DNA of 36,165 nucleotides, from IMG/VR virus record IMGVR_UViG_3300002053_000009, positions 1 through 36,165 of that record. One strand, given 5' to 3'. A model generated the notes under the pieces. The model saw only the letters and a list, made by a program, of their open reading frames with translations, had not been told where the DNA came from and did not search any database. Source of the stretch: a virus. Within the stretch, counting starts at the first letter, position 1. Each line of letters begins with the position of its first letter. Below are positions 3,688-34,329 of the stretch, piece by piece. The position numbers were made by a program, and so were the translations under genes.

Positions 3688-4137
3688 TTACGGAACAACA
3701 GCATTTGTACTAGTGATTGACAAATCATTCGTTTGGAAAATAGCAATAGTATCCGCTTCAATTGTTTTAGGCGTCTCTAATACTCCTCCCCAAAGCATGT
3801 CATCTAATGTAACTCCACTTACAGTCCGCATAACAGCAAATGCTACAATAGTACCCCAAGATGCTGTAGATTTAGTAAATACAATATCTTGCATATTTTC
3901 TACACGAGCTTCACTTGAATCAGCAAGAGTCCACCAAGCTGTAGTAGTAGGAACTTCTTTCCTAATGTAAGCTCCACCAGTAGGTTCAGTCATTGTAGCT
4001 GGATTATCCCAATCAATTAATGATGTAGATAATGCAATATATACTGACACAGCTGGTTTAGTAAATTCTCCATAGTTAAACATCATATTTTGAAATGTCT
4101 GCGCAGTTAATAAGCCATAACCATTAAGTGTTGCCAT
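3688..4137 (-). CDS. Tail fibre/structural protein, small beta-rich
   Basis: A 149-aa protein with a good ribosome site (AAAGGAGAAGTATT before the ATG). It follows a pattern common in small phage tail proteins: an N-terminal helix, then YIALSTS, a GGAYIRKEVP segment, an N-x-x-D-IVFTKSTASWGTI-x-AFAVM core and a final beta segment ending SITSTNAVVP. Such proteins usually accompany tail fibres and may be adaptors or short fibres. It is separated by 75 nt from the repeat fibre upstream and by 37 nt from the next gene. The exact role is inferred from family pattern and context. Confidence 0.65.
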   Translation of the reverse strand: MATLNGYGLLTAQTFQNMMFNYGEFTKPAVSVYIALSTSLIDWDNPATMTEPTGGAYIRKEVPTTTAWWTLADSSEARVENMQDIVFTKSTASWGTIVAFAVMRTVSGVTLDDMLWGGVLETPKTIEADTIAIFQTNDLSITSTNAVVP

Positions 4138-4177
4138 AATACTTCTCCTTTGTCATTTAAAGTTACCTTAAAATATT

Positions 4178-4200
4178 TTACTTTTGTACAAAGTAAAAAC
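4178..4200. other. Imperfect inverted repeat in a fibre intergenic gap
   Basis: Arms TTTTACTTT and AAAGTAAAA surround GTAC, with one bulged T. This sits in the 75-nt gap between the repeat fibre and the small fibre-associated protein, about 40 nt before the latter's start. On the minus-strand transcript the hairpin is followed by TATTTT, so it could be a weak terminator or an RNA-processing stem. It is AT-rich and could be chance. Confidence 0.35.
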
Positions 4201-4212
4201 ACAAGTTAAAAT

Positions 4213-6258
4213 TTAACTTCCATCATAATATAAAACAATATTTGGCCTGTCAATATATCCTATTTTAGAACGTCGAAGTTTTCCAAATCCTTCAGAAACT
4301 TCTCCATCAGGTTTTATCTCCAAATACTCAGGAAATCCACAATCCCCATCCCCAGTCGTTATCTGATTAGCAGGAGATTTTATATCAGTAATTTTGTTCA
4401 ATTTTGATATCCCATTCGTTTTATGTACCGCGGTACATCTAAGAACTTGACTTTCGTGTAAATACGCATACGCTCCACCAATTTGGCCAGAAATAGATGT
4501 TAACGCGTATCCAAGTGTAGTTATACATATACTAGCAGTTACATGTTGCGCAGCGCAATGTAAATCTATCCCATTATCGCTTAAAATTGTTGAGGTATTT
4601 GTAACATTATTAGAAACAGCTCTCAACAAATTTTCTTCAGATGTTACAAGATATCCAGCAGTCTTTTGTTTAGCTTCAACTTGTATATAATTCTCTTCAC
4701 TTAAATAACCATCAGCTGTAGATATTTGATTTGATGTAGAACTAATATAAGTTTGCTCATTTAAAATAGAAGTACTCGCATCAGTTTTTTGCCCCAGATC
4801 AGTAACAGATTTTAACGCAGGGCCTTTTGATAAAAGAGATAACCCAGATGTAATATGAGATGCAGCACCTATTCCTATTTGTGTAGTTTCATTTATATCA
4901 GCAAATATATCTGTTATTGTTGAACTACTCGCGCTAAGCTCTGCAAACCTAGCTAAATGTGTATCAGGATATGTATTAGTAATTTGTCCACTTATTGATT
5001 TTATAAAATATTCTTCTGATAATTTAGCATATGTACCTGTTAAATGATCAGATTTAGCATCTTTAAAAGCTTTTCCAGTTAATTTAGATCCAGTAGCGCT
5101 TGGAACATGCTCTGCTTTCGCTCTTAAAGCATGACCAAGAATCATATGCTCATACGATTTAGTTTGTTGGGCTATAAATGCTTTTATAAGTTGAATTTCA
5201 GTTAAAATAATTTCTGGAGCTTCAGTAATTTGGTTTAATATTTCCTTACTAGTGAAATATACATTTGGAGTTAACCGTGAAATTGCTACTTCAGTTTTTT
5301 GAGAAATAGGAGCATGCGCATCTAAAAATTGCTTTGATATTAATACAGATTTCGTAACAGAAGTAATCTCACCAATGTGTGTTACAAGAGGAATAAGCTC
5401 AGGTAACATTACCGCAGAAGAAGCACTAATTTCCTGCGAAACATGACCATAAAAGAATGTTTTTCTTAAAATATGTGCTAACGCTAAACTAGTTTGCTGC
5501 CCAAATCTAGATTCTAAACATGGTGCCTTAGTAAGAACAACGATTGGTGTACTAATTTGGCCAACATGCGCAATTAATCCTACAGAATATATTACATAGT
5601 TGCCATATGCTTCCGTAATTTGGCTACTATGTGCTTCAATTGGGATCCCATCCCCTATTTTTACTAAATTACCATGAGTAATTTGTGAGGAAACCGCAGC
5701 TAAATGACGTCCCCCAATAAGATACCCTCGAGATCCAGTATATTGATTAATATCTGCTTTTATATAGTGCAGACCTGCTAATATACTTATACCTGATGTT
5801 TCTTGATGAGAAACACTGGCAAAACTTTTACCTCTCCATAGTTTACCAGTAACATCAGAAACCTGACCAGCACCTTCTGGTGTTAGAACTACTCTTGTTG
5901 TAAAAACATTAGGAGCTTCAGAATTTTGATTAGATCTACCGCGAAGAAGATTAGGATATACTAGTTCTCTTGTATAAAGACTATATTCTGCACCATCTGT
6001 GAATGTTCGGAGGTAATTATTTGAAGAATATAATAATAGCTCGTTCTTATAATATACGCCAAAAATACCAATAAATTTACTTTCTTGTTCAGAGATACCC
6101 TCTATATACTTTTTTATTTCCCCAAAATTAGGGTTATCTACAGCAGATTCTTGTGAAGCACTCCCTCTCAAAATAATATATTGAGATTGAAGCGCAAGTT
6201 CATTCGAACCACTTAGTAATTCATCTTCACTACTATATAAAACTGTATCAAGTGCCAT
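4213..6258 (-). CDS. Tail fibre-like protein built of about 22 short repeats
   Basis: A 681-aa protein starting two bases after the J-like gene stop. Residues about 145-640 are a long series of degenerate 20-23-residue repeats with the pattern Q-I-T-x-x-x-(G)-x-L-x-x-x-x-x-L-x-(A/S), for example SNQISTADGYLSEENYIQV and SGQITNTYPDTHLARFAEL. I count roughly 22 units. The regular period, with a small/polar start and hydrophobic i/i+7 positions, suggests a solenoid or elongated fibre. The C-terminal 40 residues differ (EYLEIKPDGEVSEGFG...). A related repeat ends the tail terminator protein at 15113-15844. A structural fibre or tip-associated role is inferred from its place directly after J. Confidence 0.7.
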   Translation of the reverse strand: MALDTVLYSSEDELLSGSNELALQSQYIILRGSASQESAVDNPNFGEIKKYIEGISEQESKFIGIFGVYYKNELLLYSSNNYLRTFTDGAEYSLYTRELVYPNLLRGRSNQNSEAPNVFTTRVVLTPEGAGQVSDVTGKLWRGKSFASVSHQETSGISILAGLHYIKADINQYTGSRGYLIGGRHLAAVSSQITHGNLVKIGDGIPIEAHSSQITEAYGNYVIYSVGLIAHVGQISTPIVVLTKAPCLESRFGQQTSLALAHILRKTFFYGHVSQEISASSAVMLPELIPLVTHIGEITSVTKSVLISKQFLDAHAPISQKTEVAISRLTPNVYFTSKEILNQITEAPEIILTEIQLIKAFIAQQTKSYEHMILGHALRAKAEHVPSATGSKLTGKAFKDAKSDHLTGTYAKLSEEYFIKSISGQITNTYPDTHLARFAELSASSSTITDIFADINETTQIGIGAASHITSGLSLLSKGPALKSVTDLGQKTDASTSILNEQTYISSTSNQISTADGYLSEENYIQVEAKQKTAGYLVTSEENLLRAVSNNVTNTSTILSDNGIDLHCAAQHVTASICITTLGYALTSISGQIGGAYAYLHESQVLRCTAVHKTNGISKLNKITDIKSPANQITTGDGDCGFPEYLEIKPDGEVSEGFGKLRRSKIGYIDRPNIVLYYDGS

Positions 6259-22223: not shown

Positions 22224-22313
22224 CAAAAAATTAAAAGCATTTTTTTAACTAAACTAAAAATTAAAAATATTTTTTAACCTGAATCAAAAATTAAAAGCAT
22301 TTTTTTAACTAAC
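22224..22313. repeat. Three 30-bp tandem repeats at the end of the MuF gene
   Basis: Units begin at 22226, 22256 and 22286, exactly 30 bp apart, each with AAAAATTAAAA followed by a T run and TTAAC. The first and third are almost identical; the middle one is diverged. Each unit contains a TTAAAA/TTTTAA dyad. The last unit overlaps the stop codon of the MuF gene. They may be iterons or weak terminator-like stems. Confidence 0.75.
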
Positions 22314-23321
22314 TTCTGGTAAAGAAGGTAATGCAGCGCATCTACACTGTGGATGGACAGGAATCATCCCTTCAATTTTATCAAGATCAAAAATCTTACC
22401 TTCTAATGGCCTACATAATTCACATACTCTATAATCACCTGCAGTGCTCCATTCAGCCTTTACTTGAACGGCGGTAATACCAGCATTTCGATATTCTTGG
22501 ATAGCAGCTAAATGATTAGCTCTAATAACTTCGGTTCTAGCCAAAATAGTTGCTCTAGTAATTCCTATTTTATTTACTCGATCAACAATATTCCTTGCTA
22601 TCTCCCTTGGATTTAACCCACGCACCAATCCATCAGCTAACTCTCTACTAATTTGTGCATCCATTGCTTTAGTTATACCTTCTAAGTCTGTGAATACTCT
22701 AGTATATACAGTTCCTATTCTATCAGAATGAAACGCACTCCCAAGGGTATCATTCACTGATATATCATCAGTAGGAAAATCATTTTTAGTTTTATTTATA
22801 AATGAAAGAAGTTCTTTATTAGCTTTGATATGTTGGCGTGCAAATATAATCCCACCTGAATATGCGCGCCTAATAAATGTATTTGTCCAGATTGGCTCTA
22901 TCCCTACGCCTATCTGTGGAAAATATACCCGTTGTGCCACAGATTTATTTTCCATATCAGATAGCCATTCCATAAAAGAATTTATCTTTTCTGGATCAGT
23001 TCTAAATTTGAACCTATTTATTCCAATAGGGAATAAATCTTTTAACCAATCATTTTTTTGTGCACTCACCGTAGATTGATTTTTTACTAACCCAAAGCAA
23101 TCATTATTTATAATACTTTCATTTATTATTTTTTTGAGCGCAGAAAATCTCTTAGAAAACTGCGTACTAAATTGTTTTCTTAAAGTTGTTGTTTTAGTAG
23201 GATCGCTAGATTTTAATAAATATAATATCCTATTTGGAGAAGTACTATCCCCTCTTTCTAATAAATTTGAGCGTATTGATTTCATAATTTGATTTCCTTT
23301 GATTGCATTAGACCAATGCAT
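22305..23321 (-). CDS. MuF-like head morphogenesis protein
   Basis: A 338-aa minor head protein of the phage Mu gpF family. The C-terminal domain has ATILARTEVIRANHLAAIQEYRNAG, then W-x-T-x-x-D-x-x-VCELC (Cys300/Cys303) and HPQCRC (His323, Cys326, Cys328), the expected metal-binding set. The N-terminal 200 residues are helical and divergent. The ATG is 7 nt after the ThyX-like stop with GAGG upstream; a second good start is M13. Portal-MuF order is standard, here interrupted by the ThyX-like gene. Confidence 0.9.
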   Translation of the reverse strand: MHWSNAIKGNQIMKSIRSNLLERGDSTSPNRILYLLKSSDPTKTTTLRKQFSTQFSKRFSALKKIINESIINNDCFGLVKNQSTVSAQKNDWLKDLFPIGINRFKFRTDPEKINSFMEWLSDMENKSVAQRVYFPQIGVGIEPIWTNTFIRRAYSGGIIFARQHIKANKELLSFINKTKNDFPTDDISVNDTLGSAFHSDRIGTVYTRVFTDLEGITKAMDAQISRELADGLVRGLNPREIARNIVDRVNKIGITRATILARTEVIRANHLAAIQEYRNAGITAVQVKAEWSTAGDYRVCELCRPLEGKIFDLDKIEGMIPVHPQCRCAALPSLPEVS

Positions 23322-23330
23322 ATCTTAACC

Positions 23331-24149
23331 TCAACAAGAATCTTCTTCTAATTGTTCAGCATTTGGAATATTTTTAATATAATCTTTTGTTACCTCTTTT
23401 TCAGGAGAATAGACATTCATGCTTTCTTTATCTTTAAATTTGGAAAATGGAGTATCCTCTTCAGGCCCTGGCCATGATGGCTTAGATTTAGCTTTATCTG
23501 ATTGGCTATTTTCAGTCTTTATATACTTATTATGAAGAGATTCAAATAATTCCGGGTAATCTTTAAATAAATTCTTTAAAAGTGGTAAAATAAGTAATAA
23601 CAAGTTCAAGTTTGATTTTCTAGAACATTCTATATCTATAATTTCTCTCAAATTTTTTAAAGTAGCCGTCATAATTAATTCTGTTTTTAGGCATAACGGC
23701 AACAAAGTATCAACAAATGAATAAGGTATCCCTTTCTTCACTAATTGAAAATAAAGTTCCTCAACTTTTGAAATAGCTGCTACCCAATCATTGCATGCTT
23801 GTTCATGATAAAATTTAGTATCCTTTTTACAGAATAAAGGAGCTATAACAATAAATTCTTCTTTATTTTCTAAATTAAGTTTTTCTTGGCTAAATAAAAT
23901 ATTTTGATGTGTTCTAATTTGCTGGCTAGTTTTTAAATCGCAGGTAAAATGTATAGAAGTTAAAATATGATCTAAAGCAGAATAATCATTCCCTTTCATT
24001 AAATTAGGTAAAAAACTTTTATAAGATTTTTCATTAATATTCTTATAAGATAAATCTTTTACACGTTCATTAAATTCAATAAATTTCAATTCACTTTCTT
24101 TATTTTCATTATGAGAAATTATAGTAACTTTAGATTTAATAGCTTTCAT
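23331..24149 (-). CDS. ThyX-like protein with degenerate active site
   Basis: A 272-aa protein. Residues about 50-205 follow the flavin-dependent thymidylate synthase (ThyX) fold pattern: the LDH...F motif, the signature helix, Y-x-x-L-x-x-x-GIP, LLP...T, and a final P-x-L-F. The hallmark RHRxxSxxxxSxRY is replaced by THQNILFSQEKLNL (residues 80-93), so both RHR arginines and the second Ser/Arg are gone. The conserved Arg of the ..AR.VLP motif is Asp147. It is therefore unlikely to make dTMP. A 65-residue charged, acidic tail follows. It starts at the portal stop (TAATAATG, site GGGGAG), so it is made with head proteins. Function unknown. Confidence 0.75.
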   Translation of the reverse strand: MKAIKSKVTIISHNENKESELKFIEFNERVKDLSYKNINEKSYKSFLPNLMKGNDYSALDHILTSIHFTCDLKTSQQIRTHQNILFSQEKLNLENKEEFIVIAPLFCKKDTKFYHEQACNDWVAAISKVEELYFQLVKKGIPYSFVDTLLPLCLKTELIMTATLKNLREIIDIECSRKSNLNLLLLILPLLKNLFKDYPELFESLHNKYIKTENSQSDKAKSKPSWPGPEEDTPFSKFKDKESMNVYSPEKEVTKDYIKNIPNAEQLEEDSC

Positions 24150-24151
24150 TA

Positions 24152-25705
24152 TTATCTCCCCTCATCTTCTTTAGTAATTTCCTCTTCTATAATATTAGTA
24201 GCCAATTCTATTTCTGCGTCACTCATCCCAAGTTCACGCTTTAAAAATACTTCTGGTGGGACTAAATCAGATGCCCCAATAGAATTTACATACATAGATA
24301 ATGCTTCTGTATGTATTTTGCCTATTTCGGCTTTATCCTTCTCAGATAATACTACCGCAGCGGGCCATTCTACATGGTAGCCATCTTTAGGCGTACTTAA
24401 AACATTTACTGAGATCAATCTATCTATTAATGGCCTTAATAAAGATCGTTCCCCTACTTCTTCCCTTCGTTCGTCAATATATGATAGCCATGCTCGTTCA
24501 TCTTGATTAGATGATAATTCTCCTCTTTCCGAGCCGATTAAAATTCTTATTGGAATCCTACTAGCTGCACTAATTAATTGAAGTTGTACATCAACATGAT
24601 CTTTTGGCGATACCACTTGTGGAGAAAGTGATTGAATATTAAGACCTTCCACATATAACCATCTTTGTAAATTATTTACAAAATCTGATAATTGTTCTTT
24701 CAATTCATTAAGTTGAGTTTCATTAACAATACCATTATCTATAGCCTGCGCAGTATATCCAGGTCTAGCACCACGCCAATACATCTCAGGTGATCCACCA
24801 GCAAGCTTTTCTAAGCCTATTAGACGATTATAAACTGCCTCTAATCTAGGTAATCCATAAATCTCATTATCTAAACTATTCTCAGCTAAATGGATTAATC
24901 TACTCCAATGAACAATCTTTGTAGAAATTTGATTTGATCCAGCAGATAAATTAATTTGATACAACTCAGGTAATCCATACCTAGGGGATTTTATATCTTT
25001 ATCCCAAGTTAGAATATTAGCTTTAGGTTCAACGATTGGAGAAACATATAAAAGATTATTCGCGCGTTTAACTTCTTTTGAAACATCTTCTGCATCATCA
25101 AATCCTAAAAATAGTACTCCATATCGCCCAATATTAGCAATTAAATCTACCTTATACAGATAATAAAATAAATTAAGTTTATTCTTTAACTCATCAAAAT
25201 CTTTTTCAAACTTAGTATCTTCTTCAGTAGATTCATAAATATCTGGCTCATATCTCCATGTAGCAGCAACCGGAGCCTTAATAACTCTATGCGCCAAATC
25301 TTGACGTTTATATCTGTGAAGATAATCATAATAAGTTATCTCAACAGGATAATCTAAAGCTTCATCGATATCAGTATAAGTTGAATTATTTAATCCCCTT
25401 CTAAAATTATTAATACCAAATTTGTTTAATAAAACATTAGCACTTGAAACTAACCCACGCATTGATGAATCTTTATTACTCCAGTGAGGGTCAGAAGAAT
25501 CTCCTAGATTTACACCTAAATAAGATGCAACTTTTTTAGATTTATCTTTATTTTGCATACCCTTAATCTTGCCATTCTCCAACATTGAAATATATGCTGG
25601 GCTAACATTAGTTTCTTTTGCTAGTTGTCTAATTGTTAATGAACGCTTTGCTCTTTGCGTTTTAATCTTTGACGCAAACTCATTGAAATTACTCATAGTT
25701 ATCAT
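24152..25705 (-). CDS. Portal protein (DUF1073-like) with N-terminal Xre DNA-binding domain
   Basis: A 517-aa single reading frame. Residues about 10-66 are a Cro/C1-type helix-turn-helix (RQLAKETNVSPAYISMLENG at 26-45). From about residue 85 the protein is a DUF1073-type portal (YYDYLHRYKRQDLAHRVIKAP, LIANIGRYGVLFLGFDD, RGARPGYTAQ, AASRIPIRILIGSERGELSSNQDERAW). Known portals of this type start near the second part, so the first 80 residues are an added domain. A consensus promoter lies just upstream, with AAGAAGG before ATG 25705. The fused HTH might bind phage DNA for packaging or repress its own promoter; both are inferences. Confidence 0.85.
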   Translation of the reverse strand: MITMSNFNEFASKIKTQRAKRSLTIRQLAKETNVSPAYISMLENGKIKGMQNKDKSKKVASYLGVNLGDSSDPHWSNKDSSMRGLVSSANVLLNKFGINNFRRGLNNSTYTDIDEALDYPVEITYYDYLHRYKRQDLAHRVIKAPVAATWRYEPDIYESTEEDTKFEKDFDELKNKLNLFYYLYKVDLIANIGRYGVLFLGFDDAEDVSKEVKRANNLLYVSPIVEPKANILTWDKDIKSPRYGLPELYQINLSAGSNQISTKIVHWSRLIHLAENSLDNEIYGLPRLEAVYNRLIGLEKLAGGSPEMYWRGARPGYTAQAIDNGIVNETQLNELKEQLSDFVNNLQRWLYVEGLNIQSLSPQVVSPKDHVDVQLQLISAASRIPIRILIGSERGELSSNQDERAWLSYIDERREEVGERSLLRPLIDRLISVNVLSTPKDGYHVEWPAAVVLSEKDKAEIGKIHTEALSMYVNSIGASDLVPPEVFLKRELGMSDAEIELATNIIEEEITKEDEGR

Positions 25706-25727
25706 ACCTTCTTAATGTGTTAAATTG

Positions 25728-25755
25728 ATTATAAACATTTATTAAACAATGTCAA
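25728..25755 (-). promoter_or_regulatory. Consensus sigma70 promoter before the Xre-portal gene
   Basis: TTGACA (25755-25750), a 16-base spacer and TATAAT (25733-25728) all match consensus. The pair sits in the 53-nt gap after the terminase nuclease stop. Start of transcription would be near 25721, leaving a leader of about 16 nt before ATG 25705. Confidence 0.8.
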
Positions 25756-25758
25756 TAA

Positions 25759-26364
25759 TTAATTGCCACCTATTATACGAACATTAGATCCACTTTTATT
25801 TCTATTTTCTCCATACCATAATGCAATCCCAATACTCATAATAATATCGTCATGTAATCCAGAAACAGCAGAATAACTATCTCTTCCATTCGCTGCTATT
25901 TTGACTTTAAATCCTAAAAATTCTCTATTTAAATCTGCTAATAAAGGTAAATCAGAAGCAATCTTTAATCTATTATTTTGCATTACTACTTGGATAGAAG
26001 ATACAATATCCCTTTTGGGAACATTTGCTTCTAATCTAGATGCCCAAATAGATTTATTGCCACCTGTGATGTTTATTGAAATAATTTTCATATTCCTTTT
26101 TTTGAATAAATCCACCACAGGATGGCCAACACCAGTATAATCAATAACCAAGATATAATCATTCTTTATATATAGCTTATTTTCTATAAATTTAGAAATA
26201 GAATTAACTATATCTGGGTATGGAGTTTTTAATGGAAATTTATGGATAAAAGGAAGTGAATAGTTTAATTCATTATCTATAAATACTGTTTCTAAAGCAC
26301 TTATTACTGTGTAATCATTTTGTTGCCCTAGATCTAACCCAAAAATATACTTATTTATAAGCAT
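25759..26364 (-). CDS. terL: Terminase large subunit, nuclease domain
   Basis: A 201-aa RNase H-fold nuclease, the C-terminal half of TerL as a separate ORF. Acidic residues typical of the site are visible: Asp11 in IFGLDLGQQNDYT, Asp75 in LVIDYTGVG and Asp172/173 in GLHDDIIMSIGIALW. It cuts the DNA concatemer during packaging. It begins right at the catalytic domain and lacks an ATPase part; the ATPase half lies upstream at 27942-28730. Its ATG overlaps the stop of the 65-aa cargo gene (TAATG) and has no strong ribosome site, so translation is probably coupled. Confidence 0.9.
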   Translation of the reverse strand: MLINKYIFGLDLGQQNDYTVISALETVFIDNELNYSLPFIHKFPLKTPYPDIVNSISKFIENKLYIKNDYILVIDYTGVGHPVVDLFKKRNMKIISINITGGNKSIWASRLEANVPKRDIVSSIQVVMQNNRLKIASDLPLLADLNREFLGFKVKIAANGRDSYSAVSGLHDDIIMSIGIALWYGENRNKSGSNVRIIGGN

Positions 26365-26561
26365 TACCTATCTTTCATAGGAGGGATACGTATTTTCCTT
26401 CCTAGCGGGAATCTCCATTCTAAAGGTCCTTGAATATATCCTCTCCCATAACCTCTACCATCCCTTGGGGCAACTCCATTGCTACCAGGCGGGCAGTTCC
26501 CTTGCCCACGACCTGTTCTAGATCCTTTTCCTCTAGGACCTGTCCCATCTCTTGCTGGCAT
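26364..26561 (-). CDS. DUF5320-like small glycine/arginine-rich protein
   Basis: A 65-aa protein starting MPARDGTGPRGKGSRTGRG, close to the MPRGDGTGPxGxGPxTGRG start typical of DUF5320 proteins of bacteria and archaea. The remainder is rich in Gly, Pro and Arg and ends KIRIPPMKDR. The family's function is not established. It has a strong site (AAAAGGAGGTAATTATT) and lies 15 nt after gdhA. Its GC content is much higher than the phage average. It is probably co-transferred cellular cargo. Confidence 0.65.
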   Translation of the reverse strand: MPARDGTGPRGKGSRTGRGQGNCPPGSNGVAPRDGRGYGRGYIQGPLEWRFPLGRKIRIPPMKDR

Positions 26562-26576
26562 AATAATTACCTCCTT

Positions 26577-27926
26577 TTAAATTAATCCTTGGTCAATCAT
26601 AGCATTTGCTACTTTAAGAAATCCTGCTATATTCGCACCAGCTATATAGTTCCCAGGAACACCATATTTATCTGCAGCTTCCAAACAAGATTCATGAATA
26701 CTCTTCATAATACGTTTGAGGTGATTATCTACTTCTCCATAAGACCAGCTTAATCTTGTACTATTTTGAGCCATCTCAAGGCCAGAAACAGCAACGCCTC
26801 CTGCGTTAGATGCTTTACCTGGGGCATACAAAATCTTTTTATCCAAAAAATGATGGATCGCTTTAGGTGTAGAAGACATATTAGATCCTTCTACAACAAG
26901 TAAAATATCATTGTTTAAAAGATTTCGAGCATCTTTTGCATTGATTTCATTTTGAGTAGCACATGGAAAAGCACAATCTGCTTTATGATTCCAAATAGGA
27001 TTATAATCTAAGGAAGAATCCACTTCAGTATATACCGCATGAGGATAATTATTTATATATTCTTTAATTCTCCCTCTTTGCACATTTTTAAGCTTTTTCA
27101 CAAAATTTAATTTCTCTTTATTAATCCCCTCTTCGTCATAGATACAACCAGAAGAATCAGAAAGCGTAACCACTTTGGCGTCTAATTCAATCAATTTTTC
27201 TACAGCGAATTGAGCTACATTTCCAGACCCTGAGACTAGACATATTTTATCTCTTAATGTTTGATTACGTGTATTAAGCATCCAAAAAGAAAAATAAATA
27301 CATCCATACCCTGTTGCTTCTGGACGAATAAGACTTCCACCCCAATCCAGGTTTTTACCAGTCAAAACGCCAGTGAATTCATTTGCCAGCTTCCGGTACA
27401 TGCCGAAGAGATATCCAATCTCTCTTGCCCCTACACCAATATCTCCTGCAGGGACATCCGTATTAGGCCCAATATGCCTGAAGAGTTCCATCATGAAGCT
27501 TTGGCAGAATCGCATCACCTCGTTGTCAGATTTGCCCTTAGGATCAAAATCAGAGCCTCCCTTACCTCCTCCCATAGGTAAAGTAGTAAGAGCATTTTTA
27601 AAGGTTTGTTCGAATGCGAGGAATTTAAGAATACTGAGATTTACAGATGGATGAAATCGCAGTCCACCTTTATAAGGCCCTATGGAACTGTTCATCTGGA
27701 CTCTGTATCCTCGATTCACATGCACATGTGCTTCATCATCCATCCAAGGGACCCGAAACATAATTACTCGCTCAGGTTCCACTAGCCTCTCCAGAATGCC
27801 ATTTTTTCGGTATTGTGGGTTGCTATCCAAAACGGGCTTTATAGATTCTATAACTTCTTCTACCGCTTGATGGAATTCTTTTTCATGTGGGTTACGTACT
27901 TTAATCGTTTCTAGTATTTTTGACAT
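26577..27926 (-). CDS. gdhA: Glutamate dehydrogenase (auxiliary metabolic gene)
   Basis: A complete 449-aa hexameric-type glutamate dehydrogenase, the same length as cellular enzymes (about 450). It interconverts 2-oxoglutarate plus ammonia and glutamate. Key residues are present at positions matching the Clostridium symbiosum enzyme: Lys86 (GPYKGGLR), Lys110, Lys122 (PMGGGKGGSDFDPKG) and Asp162 (PAGDIGVGAREIG). The Rossmann motif is GSGNVA at 233-238, and SDSSG at 256-260 favours NADP(H). It has a good site (AAAAAAAGGAGAAAATT). It sits between the two halves of the terminase. The 5' half (about 27300-27880) is near 45% GC, the 3' half near 33%. Confidence 0.97.
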   Translation of the reverse strand: MSKILETIKVRNPHEKEFHQAVEEVIESIKPVLDSNPQYRKNGILERLVEPERVIMFRVPWMDDEAHVHVNRGYRVQMNSSIGPYKGGLRFHPSVNLSILKFLAFEQTFKNALTTLPMGGGKGGSDFDPKGKSDNEVMRFCQSFMMELFRHIGPNTDVPAGDIGVGAREIGYLFGMYRKLANEFTGVLTGKNLDWGGSLIRPEATGYGCIYFSFWMLNTRNQTLRDKICLVSGSGNVAQFAVEKLIELDAKVVTLSDSSGCIYDEEGINKEKLNFVKKLKNVQRGRIKEYINNYPHAVYTEVDSSLDYNPIWNHKADCAFPCATQNEINAKDARNLLNNDILLVVEGSNMSSTPKAIHHFLDKKILYAPGKASNAGGVAVSGLEMAQNSTRLSWSYGEVDNHLKRIMKSIHESCLEAADKYGVPGNYIAGANIAGFLKVANAMIDQGLI

Positions 27927-27941
27927 AATTTTCTCCTTTTT

Positions 27942-28730
27942 TTAATTAATAGAAAAATTCCATGCTTTTACATTTTGGTCAACTGAATTAACTACTAAAT
28001 CGTGCGTAAATATTTGGTCTTCAGTATCAACAAATTGACAAAAATATTCTTGATTCACCCACCAATCTCCAACTTCACGTCTTTCGTTTTCTATAAATTC
28101 ATCACTAATCCTAGGGCATTCATCAGCAGTCACTTTTATTTTATGCCAATCATTATCAGTTATCCATGCTTTAAAAAACCAACCTCGCTTTCCAAAAGGG
28201 GTAGATAAAGCTAAAATTTTACCTAAAGAAATAGCAAGCATCGGACGAATTGTAGCATATAACTCATCAGAAACTTGTGCAGCTTCATCTATAATTAAAA
28301 GTGAAACCTTTGAAAAAGATCGGATCGTATCTTCTTTACCAGGCAAAGAAATAATTCTACTACCGTTCGAAAATTCCGCCATAGATTGATTTTCCCTGAT
28401 AATAGTCCTGATAGAAGCTGCTTTATTAATTCCATATTTTACCTTTCTAAATAATTCCTCAGCTTGTCGTAATGATTTTGAAATAATTAAAACTAATGAA
28501 TCTTCTTCATACAAAGCTTTATGCAACGCGATAGTTGCGCTTATTGTAGATTTACCTGATTGTCTAGAGCATAATAACAAAGCTGATTGTGGGCGATCCC
28601 ATAATAAATCACGTTGCCATTTATCTGGGCTTATATCAAATACATACATAGCAAATAATTCTGGGTTTATTGCATATGCAAGCTCATTAGCTATAGAACC
28701 AATATTACTATATATTCTTCGATGTTTCAT
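27942..28730 (-). CDS. terL: Terminase large subunit, ATPase domain
   Basis: A 262-aa packaging motor ATPase, the N-terminal half of TerL. Walker A is CSRQSGKS (54-61), Walker B LLIIDEA (144-150) and the coupling motif STPFGKRG (176-183). It ends ...EDQIFTHDLVVNSVDQNVKAWNFSIN just where a normal TerL would pass into the nuclease domain, which is encoded 1.6 kb further on. The ATG overlaps the small-subunit stop (TAATG). Both halves look intact, so the motor may work as two subunits. Alternatively this is a broken gene. Confidence 0.93.
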   Translation of the reverse strand: MKHRRIYSNIGSIANELAYAINPELFAMYVFDISPDKWQRDLLWDRPQSALLLCSRQSGKSTISATIALHKALYEEDSLVLIISKSLRQAEELFRKVKYGINKAASIRTIIRENQSMAEFSNGSRIISLPGKEDTIRSFSKVSLLIIDEAAQVSDELYATIRPMLAISLGKILALSTPFGKRGWFFKAWITDNDWHKIKVTADECPRISDEFIENERREVGDWWVNQEYFCQFVDTEDQIFTHDLVVNSVDQNVKAWNFSIN

Positions 28731-29359
28731 TAGCCATTTAATAATCTTAATTCATTAGCTACAGCAATACTAGCATCTCTATATGGTAGTAAAGCTTTAG
28801 TTACTGTTTCAATTAATGTTTTAGATTCAGTTTTAGCTTCTTGTTCTAGCATAAGTTCAGAAGCTCGTAGCATCAGTTCTATACTATTTCTTAATTCTCT
28901 TACAGCTAATAATGTTAAATGATCAGCTCCTTTACGTTCGCATCTAATTATAAATTTCACTAAATAATTACGAATATATTCTATCCATTCACCTACTGCA
29001 TTAGTTTTTGGAATTCCTTCATCTAATTCATGGATATCTATATAAGAGCTTGGGATATACGAACTATTAGTCGCTCCTATTATTGGGTTGTTTACTTCTG
29101 GGGTTTTTTTATCCGTATGTTTAGGTAAATTAATCTTCGCAGGACGAATAGGTAACTCAAAAATATTGCTGTATAATTTCTTCCGCTCTAGCTCATGTTT
29201 CAATGCCATATTTAGGCATCTATGTTTATGCCTACGTACAGTAGGTTCAGCAAAATTATATCTCTTAGCTACTTTCCTAACAGAAAGTCCTTCAAGTAAA
29301 TCACTATCAATTAATCCTCTATCATTGCTATTGCAGATCTTGCATCCTAAACGACTCAT
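28730..29359 (-). CDS. Terminase small subunit-like DNA-binding protein
   Basis: A 209-aa protein. The N-terminus has a CKIC pair (Cys6, Cys9) followed by a helix-turn-helix (GLSVRKVAKRYNFAEPTVRRHKHRCL, about 25-50). This pattern is common in proteins encoded directly before TerL. The middle is flexible; the C-terminus is helical and probably oligomerises. It would recognise the packaging site. Sequence repeats (GACGCA clusters) lie in its leader and are candidate targets. The ribosome site is AAAGGATTG, 11 nt before the ATG. Confidence 0.8.
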   Translation of the reverse strand: MSRLGCKICNSNDRGLIDSDLLEGLSVRKVAKRYNFAEPTVRRHKHRCLNMALKHELERKKLYSNIFELPIRPAKINLPKHTDKKTPEVNNPIIGATNSSYIPSSYIDIHELDEGIPKTNAVGEWIEYIRNYLVKFIIRCERKGADHLTLLAVRELRNSIELMLRASELMLEQEAKTESKTLIETVTKALLPYRDASIAVANELRLLNG

Positions 29360-29413
29360 GTCAAATCAATCCTTTTATATTAATTCTATTTCATTATAAC
29401 CACATTTATAAAC

Positions 29414-29456
29414 TGCGTCAAAAAAAATGCGTCGCCATTTTACGACGCGCGACGCA
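29414..29456. promoter_or_regulatory. GCGTC repeat cluster 2 (four sites, two orientations)
   Basis: TGCGTC occurs at 29414 and 29428 and its complement GACGC at 29444 and 29451, giving an inverted array just upstream of the small terminase gene. On the minus strand it reads GACGCA-T7-TGACGCA then TATAAA. It is a candidate binding site for the small terminase (packaging) or a late activator. Confidence 0.55.
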
Positions 29457-29564
29457 AAATTGAAACCTTTTATTTTTCAAAAATCTTATTTATTTATTTC
29501 TTTCCTCTTATAACATAGCGAAGGTACTAAATATTATCTTAATAAGCTGATATATTTAGATGAT

Positions 29565-29600
29565 ATTATATTCAACAATTTGCGTCATTAAAATGCGTCA
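29565..29600 (-). promoter_or_regulatory. GCGTC repeat cluster 1 with TATAAT: activator-type promoter
   Basis: On the minus strand TGACGCA (29600-29594), six bases, TGACGCA (29587-29581), ten bases, then TATAAT (29570-29565). No good -35 hexamer is present, and the direct repeats cover the -35 zone, as at activator-dependent phage promoters. The protein that binds is unknown. Confidence 0.45.
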
Positions 29601-29610
29601 TGAACAGACA

Positions 29611-29648
29611 AAAAAATAGGTGCTAAGATGTGCAGGTCCTAGCACCTA
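29611..29648 (-). terminator. Intrinsic terminator/attenuator in the late leader
   Basis: On the minus strand a perfect 9-bp stem TAGGTGCTA / TAGCACCTA (29648-29640 with 29625-29617) with a 14-nt loop is followed directly by seven T's. It lies downstream of the promoter at 29708-29735 and upstream of the small terminase gene. It would stop late transcription unless an antiterminator acts. Confidence 0.65.
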
Positions 29649-29707
29649 GGAGGGACATACCATCTTCCTTCGTGGAAAGAAAGGAGGTAAGAAACGAAGA
29701 TACATTT

Positions 29708-29735
29708 ATAATATACCTATATTATGAAATGTCAA
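29708..29735 (-). promoter_or_regulatory. Strong promoter for the late operon
   Basis: TTGACA (29735-29730), 16-base spacer and TATTAT (29713-29708), matching consensus at 11 of 12 positions. It points toward the terminase genes. The predicted start is near 29701, giving a leader of about 340 nt that contains the hairpin and the repeat clusters. Confidence 0.65.
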
Positions 29736-29750
29736 GAAAAAAAATAGATA

Positions 29751-29798
29751 ATAAAAAAAAGTAGGTAATTAAGATTATAGTATCTATATTACCTACTT
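29751..29798 (-). terminator. Intrinsic terminator after the AlpA-like regulator gene
   Basis: On the minus strand a perfect 11-bp stem AAGTAGGTAAT / ATTACCTACTT (arms at 29788-29798 and 29759-29769) with an 18-nt loop is followed by eight T's. It lies about 80 nt after the stop of the regulator gene and insulates it from the late promoter. Confidence 0.75.
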
Positions 29799-29875
29799 CT
29801 GCCAAGCTAAGGCAATGTCAGAGCATTTGGTTAATAACTATATTAACTTTATATCACATAATGTCAAGGTAAAAA

Positions 29876-30106
29876 TTAGATTTCTGTTGAAATAATGCAT
29901 TTTTCAATAAATTCATCTAGGAATTTTTTGAAGTACCGAATTCTGCCCCCCAACTTTAAATATTTAGGTCCTCTTTTACGATACCGCATCGAGGCTAAAC
30001 TATAAGGTGACAATCCCAAATAATCTGCTGCTTGTTGAGGTGTTAGACATTCACTACCGTTAAACAATTTATTACTTTCACGTGTACTTTCAACTGCTAT
30101 ATCCAT
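29876..30106 (-). CDS. AlpA/excisionase-type helix-turn-helix regulator
   Basis: A 76-aa DNA-binding protein from ATG 30106 (MDIAVESTRESN), chosen because ATTGGAGGATAAT precedes it. The HTH_17/MerR-like domain is clear: CLTPQQAADYLGLSPYSLASMRYRKRGPKYLKLGGRIRYFKKFLDEFI. Such proteins act as excisionases or as small transcription regulators. There is no integrase, so a regulator of the divergent early operon is more likely. It lies opposite that operon with a palindrome in between. Confidence 0.8.
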   Translation of the reverse strand: MDIAVESTRESNKLFNGSECLTPQQAADYLGLSPYSLASMRYRKRGPKYLKLGGRIRYFKKFLDEFIEKCIISTEI

Positions 30107-30143
30107 ATTATCCTCCAATTTGTATTGTAATAACATTAATTTA

Positions 30144-33872: not shown

Positions 33873-34279
33873 TACAAACATTTTTTATCCCTTGGATATT
33901 ACCTGGTGCAAATGAAATTATTAAATCAGCACGCCGTACTTACAAACCTAATATTAGATCTGGTAGTCAATATAGCACAATAAAAAAACAACAAACAAAA
34001 GAGATAGCTAAAATTATATTGGCTACCAGAATAAAAAAAATAGACAAAGTTTTCTTAAACATTATTTGGATAGAACAAAATAGAAAGAGGGATCCAGATA
34101 ATATAGCAGCTGGAATAAAATTTATATTAGATGCGCTTCAATTAGCAAATGTGATAGAAAATGATGGGTGGAATAATATATTAGGTTGGACAAACGAATT
34201 TAAAACAGCATCTCCAATAGGAGTACATATAACTTTATTATCGCCTGGGTGGCGAAATTGGTATACGCAAGGGACTTAA
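33842..34279 (+). CDS. rusA: RusA-like Holliday junction resolvase
   Basis: A 145-aa resolvase. Acidic residues match RusA: Asp84 and Asp86 in KRDPDNI, Asp97 in FILDALQ, Asp108 in ENDGW, with Lys93. It cuts branched DNA before packaging. The normal end would be near GVHITLL (residues 127-133). The last 12 residues (SPGWRNWYTQGT) are encoded by the 5' half of the overlapping tRNA-Leu gene, and the stop TAA at 34277-34279 is its anticodon. It overlaps the loader gene by 31 nt without its own ribosome site. Confidence 0.87.
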   Translation: MDNKEESTQLIQTFFIPWILPGANEIIKSARRTYKPNIRSGSQYSTIKKQQTKEIAKIILATRIKKIDKVFLNIIWIEQNRKRDPDNIAAGIKFILDALQLANVIENDGWNNILGWTNEFKTASPIGVHITLLSPGWRNWYTQGT

Positions 34280-34329
34280 AATCCCTCGATATAAATGTCA
34301 TGTCGGTTCGATTCCGATCCCAGGCACCA
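34243..34329 (+). tRNA. tRNA-Leu (anticodon TAA), CCA encoded
   Basis: Acceptor arms GCCTGGG (34243-34249) and CCCAGGC (34319-34325), discriminator A, then CCA (34327-34329). D stem GCG/CGC; anticodon stem AGGGA/TCCCT around CTTAAAA with anticodon TAA at 34277-34279; long variable arm as in leucine tRNAs; T stem GTCGG/CCGAT with loop TTCGATT. It reads UUA, the leucine codon used most in this AT-rich genome. It begins inside the resolvase ORF and ends three bases before the convergent ssb stop. Confidence 0.95.

Follow-up and report, generated by a model that had tools for sequence, protein, structure and literature searches.

The window, the whole stretch of 36,165 nucleotides analysed here, carries on its minus strand a single open frame of 517 amino acids (24152..25705), which begins with an ATG at 25705, ends with a stop codon at 24152 and has no internal stops. 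The preliminary description had read it as one uninterrupted frame in which a helix-turn-helix (HTH) is followed by a DUF1073-type portal, and this reading holds, as both domains lie above their Pfam cut-offs: HTH_3 (PF01381) scores 42.7 bits on residues 14-68 (E 5.9e-11) against a cut-off of 23, and Phage_portal_3 scores 119.8 bits on residues 127-469 (E 1.5e-34) against one of 33.8. PHROG 146, annotated as "portal protein", covers residues 81-511 (8.4e-57), and the PHROG matches of the N-terminus are repressor families. The protein can be divided into an Xre/HTH_3 domain (residues 10-68; 25502..25678, minus strand), delimited by Pfam and by helices predicted with AlphaFold2, which also place the recognition helix at residues 36-44 (25574-25600, minus strand); a linker (residues 69-115; 25361..25501, minus strand), recognized by its low pLDDT and by alignment with the relatives L007-L009; and a DUF1073 portal core (residues 116-517; 24155..25360, minus strand), assigned from Pfam, PHROG and a fold match to the Sf11 portal. 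Within the linker lies a helix (79-103) at which, in the alignment with L007-L009, the HTH-less relatives begin.

The gene neighbours are typical of a portal, with terminase halves upstream and Mu F-like head (22305..23321, minus strand; Phage_Mu_F) and head-protease-like proteins downstream. TerC, the nuclease half of the terminase large subunit (25759..26364, minus strand; PHROG 27743), conserves the nuclease-type motifs LDLGQQ, DxTGVG and HDD and is homologous to part of the single-gene terminase of Meiothermus phage MMP17. TerN, the ATPase half (27942..28730, minus strand), was identified by Terminase_6N and by alignment A3. The gene before it (28730..29359, minus strand) probably encodes the small subunit, TerS, with an HTH-like N-terminus of its own, as judged from its position and from weak HTH matches; it is conserved in L002, L003, L005, L008, L009 and L020. 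Division of the large terminase into TerN and TerC genes is seen in the window (25759-28730), in L002-L006, L008, L009 and L020, and also in the majority of IMG/VR loci that were retrieved through the two halves, whereas MMP17 has one gene; no description of such a split was found in the literature searched.

The space between the two halves varies in content. In the window (26364-27926) it holds a gene for NADP-specific glutamate dehydrogenase, full-length and above the NCBIfam cut-off (739 bits), and a DUF5320 gene, with GC contents of 0.38 and 0.49, respectively, against 0.32 for the window, and relatives carry different genes in this slot. A weak ThyX-like protein (24.6 bits; cut-off 87.9), whose RHR motif appears to be lost, lies at 23331-24149 of the window, and a clear ThyX (131 bits) occupies the equivalent place after the portal in L002 (6757-7380). 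The L007 contig has a frame of 1995 codons or more between TerC and the portal gene (L033, 6604-12591), and a 1725-residue part of it gave no Pfam match. A cytidylate kinase-like gene is found just upstream of terN in L003 (2269-3036) and, by sequence, in L004 likewise. The rightward early genes of the window end with a tRNA-Leu (taa) at 34243-34329, the only hit of an Rfam scan.

A domain search for the same fusion in other phages, as had been proposed, recovered it in four IMG/VR contigs from different samples (L003, L004, L005 and L006), which share 48-50% identity with the window protein over its full length, so that HTH and portal stay in cis in 5/5 fused phages. The canonical HTH sequence is kept in all five, although scores differ: L005 and L006 exceed the HTH_3 cut-off, L004 does so only with in-frame neighbours and L003 falls just below. 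From two close pairs (dS ~1-1.6; the remaining pairs being saturated), dN/dS was 0.10 and 0.09 for the HTH, compared with 0.06 and 0.05 for the portal; at about 0.1, these sequence-based estimates indicate that the HTH of the fused portals is under purifying selection.

It could be argued that the HTH was joined to the portal by a sequencing or assembly error, or that residues 1-80 are not made, and the start of the HTH-less sisters, L002 included, near the equivalent of window residues 77-82 would suit such an artefact or dead leader. Four independent relatives with the same fusion exclude a sequencing frameshift joining two genes. A Shine-Dalgarno-like AAGAAGG ahead of the first ATG (25707..25713, minus strand) supports translation from the start of the HTH. 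A virion portal starting near Met82, the other outcome that would undo the proposal, is disfavoured by the sequence: the sole candidate ribosome site there is a badly spaced GGAG 16 bases off, Met82 itself is not conserved among relatives, and no internal start with a ribosome site common to L003-L006 was found; we thus rejected it. Given the four fused contigs, the start-site evidence and the HTH dN/dS, frameshift, misassembly or an untranslated leader is very unlikely, to the point that we give this explanation hardly any weight. The HTH-portal fusion is real, conserved and under selection.

The fused phages belong to a small, uncultured family. No HTH was seen on the portals of L002, L007, L008, L009 and L020 or on ten portals from bacterial genome contigs; L002 is the closest relative (63% identity in the portal core). 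No other portal-HTH fusion was detected in 50,697 phage records, in 72,556 plasmids or in 991 sampled genomes (398, 296 and 297 from three phyla); scans of IMG/VR showed it in only the five contigs described here, and an IMG/VR scan using the HTH alone gave no confirmed relative. One apparent case was discarded: a Klebsiella phage match over residues 4-459 (H107) was spurious, the frame before the portal being that of the terminase and the HTH being absent. By eye, neither a Vibrio phage portal matching from residue 47 (H16) nor a plasmid copy matching from residue 51 (H98) has an HTH-like stretch.

The portals of L007-L009 begin near the helix that comes after the linker in the window protein, so some 75 residues were gained at the ancestral start or close to it. 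How many such events there were depends on the tree: with L010 included, the fusion needs two changes, while without it the five fused phages group together with low support (75/44), and a tree test does not reject a pairing of the window with L002 (p 0.43).

The added domain resembles repressors. The nearest solved sequences to the window HTH are the phage immunity repressor 8BNY and ClgR (3F51), both at E of about 0.001, and the best fold matches of the modelled HTH are CapH, ClgR, SinR, HipB and similar proteins, with Foldseek E values of only 0.003 and above. A 141-amino-acid Xre protein of a bacterial locus (L195) also matches the fused N-termini; it adjoins an M78 (ImmA-like) peptidase, the neighbour on which our name "ImmR-like" rests, and what looks like a serine recombinase. 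The sister phage L008, whose portal has no HTH, carries a separate Xre gene of 133 amino acids (3827-4228), the end of which overlaps terN by 4 bases and the product of which is homologous to the L195 protein over its full length (84 bits). On the L007 contig, a small HTH gene overlaps terC likewise, without belonging clearly to the same subfamily. The packaging cluster of this phage family thus repeatedly contains repressor-type HTH proteins, and in five members the domain is built into the portal, a pattern consistent with fusion of a once-separate gene.

The earlier statement that the genome lacks a second lambda-type repressor is right as regards HTH_3, of which the 36,165-base record has a single match, on the portal; two further HTH-type proteins of other kinds are present, namely the terS product (weak matches) and an HTH_17/excisionase-like protein at 29876-30136. 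Among ten records, several of them fragments, we found no integrase or resolvase (PF00589, PF00239) and no ImmA-type peptidase (PF06114). Their absence disfavours lysogeny control, and a role of the fusion protein as a lysogeny repressor is unsupported; with no integrase found, the fusion protein more likely works during phage growth than in lysogeny.

Regulation of another kind is the main rival to DNA binding at the vertex. Free HTH-portal protein, before it enters the prohead, might occupy an operator within the late or packaging operon, adjust its transcription and so sense and limit the level of portal. The similarity of the HTH to immunity repressors and the ImmR-like protein would fit such an autoregulator, as would the separate Xre genes overlapping terN or terC in two sisters. 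The portal gene of the window has its own promoter, TTGACA-16-TATAAT (25728..25755, minus strand; 12/12 consensus matches), within the 53-base gap upstream of the ATG, and this sequence occurs once in the window against 0.12 expected in shuffles. In L003-L006, however, no promoter-sized gap precedes the portal gene and the consensus promoter is absent. Nor is the dyad at the window portal promoter significant, as 232/400 shuffles were as good; a related 16-base pattern with 10 matches versus 4.6 expected, a count reached by 5/100 shuffles, was not convincing either.

In the control region of the window, upstream of terS (29360-29875), a first promoter is followed by a short leader, then by a terminator-like hairpin and a second promoter. 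The arrangement is reminiscent of the antitermination leaders of late genes, or of a small RNA, and by eye a similar order of promoter, leader and hairpin is found in L003-L006. Perfect dyads overlap the window promoters at 29735 and 29867, and only 7/400 and 19/400 shuffles reach the dyads at these two promoters, which speaks for autoregulation. On the other hand, the control regions of the fused phages have no dyad or motif in common, and the HTH protein encoded at 29876-30136 could use the window dyads instead. Overall, we regard autoregulation as a possible but rather unlikely function. The earlier interpretation is thus supported in part: the fusion is real and selected, and of the two readings offered, that of a repressor which is also a structural protein is the weaker one, for want of an integrase, resolvase or ImmA, a significant operator at the portal promoter of the window and a promoter gap in L003-L006.

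The reading we favour as the most likely is the one first put forward, a DNA binder at the packaging vertex. An AlphaFold2 model built on a 22-row alignment of the fusion protein predicts HTH helices at residues 4-20, 25-32, 36-44 and 53-63 with pLDDT mostly about 90, and a portal core in which much of the chain likewise scores about 90 and some stretches are weaker. Between them, residues 69-110 are mostly below 60, being low at 69-80 and 96-110, with the linker helix predicted at 79-103. The portal core model matches the Sf11 portal 9YIN with a Z of 28.1 over residues 108-456, and many other solved portals match it as well. Residues 46..428 of the P23-45 portal (6QJT) align to window residues 119..501. 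The first ordered N-terminal residue of that portal, Leu26, is directed to the capsid interior, although its authors allow that the missing N-terminal segment might fold back towards the capsid (PMC7234808). By simple offset from the pair 46 and 119, Leu26 would correspond to about window residue 99.

From this, a mechanism can be proposed in which the DNA-binding domain of an Xre repressor became joined to the N-terminus of the portal at or near its ancestral start codon. Since the portal, the ring by which DNA passes into the phage head, supplies the oligomer, each complete ring would display 12 basic, DNA-binding heads held by linkers, and because the P23-45 N-terminus points inward at a position equivalent to about residue 99, the heads would most likely face the head interior near the wing. 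In 5/5 fused proteins the HTH has a net charge of +3 to +7 and the portal one of -20 to -33. The heads may bind phage DNA while it is being packaged or once it lies in the virion, and so guide or retain it at a portal that is otherwise acidic, as a supplement to TerS and not a substitute for it. We infer the DNA binding, the inward location and the role of the heads, and the explanation as a whole, an ImmR-like Xre domain joined to a DUF1073 portal whose tethered heads act at the vertex, is put forward as plausible yet tentative.

Several points count against action at the vertex. The linker has the length to put the heads elsewhere, recognition of pac needs no extra reader since TerS is present, the HTH-less sister phages manage without the domain, and the repressor ancestry together with the separate Xre genes of two sisters would fit regulation too.

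The HTH could also be a protein-protein module that does not bind DNA and instead docks the terminase, the scaffold or the capsid, or shields the portal from a host defence that detects portals. HTH folds are sometimes reused for protein contacts, and the recognition-helix residues of the window differ from those of L003-L006. Portals are moreover known targets of host defences, an example being SpbK and the SPbeta protein YonE (PMC12847820). The basic charge and the canonical HTH sequence, kept in 5/5 fused proteins, argue against a domain of this sort, and we consider it improbable.

A bolder version of the favoured vertex model can also be entertained. Sequence recognition in packaging normally falls to the small terminase, the portal being regarded as a channel. 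It can be speculated that in these phages the portal ring is itself a DNA reader, whose heads recognise specific phage sequences, so that the vertex helps to select, anchor or time the handling of the genome and possibly switches its own operon until heads are built; we rate this as unlikely. With a conserved repressor-type domain on the portal, a role of the portal in genome selection, DNA retention or assembly-coupled gene control would become testable. The locus also shows how an essential machine of the virion has recruited a transcription-factor domain, at the native start codon or close to it.

The HTH and the portal each belong to known families, and no description of their combination was found in the literature searched, where titles and abstracts, with few subscription journals covered, returned nothing relevant. 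Among solved structures, the nearest DUF1073/Phage_portal_3 (PF06381) protein is Sf11 gp42 (9YIN), with 23% identity over 344 residues, and its gene, like that of the window, lies between terminase and head morphogenesis genes (PMC12724387). The Sf11 portal has 470 amino acids of which just the first 28 are unmodelled (PMC12724387), and it therefore has no room for a separate HTH of this size. The best BFVD match, A0A6J5NR05, is a portal-domain protein of 619 amino acids named "Acb1-like N-terminal domain-containing"; its extra part is not described as an HTH, and it hints that portals of this type can form part of longer proteins as well. On the side of the regulators, 8BNY and ClgR are free-standing transcription factors and not virion proteins, unlike the window HTH. 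The ImmR-like Xre of L195 is homologous to the fused HTHs through the AGY motif (42 bits with L006, 32 bits with the window) and has an M78 peptidase beside it, whereas neither an M78 peptidase nor an integrase was found in the fused phages and their sisters. The Xre of L008 belongs to the same HTH subfamily as the fused domain and is likewise encoded in the packaging cluster, but as a separate protein with a C-terminal region. An ImmR-type repressor also has a C-terminal part, and in the fused phages a portal stands in its place.
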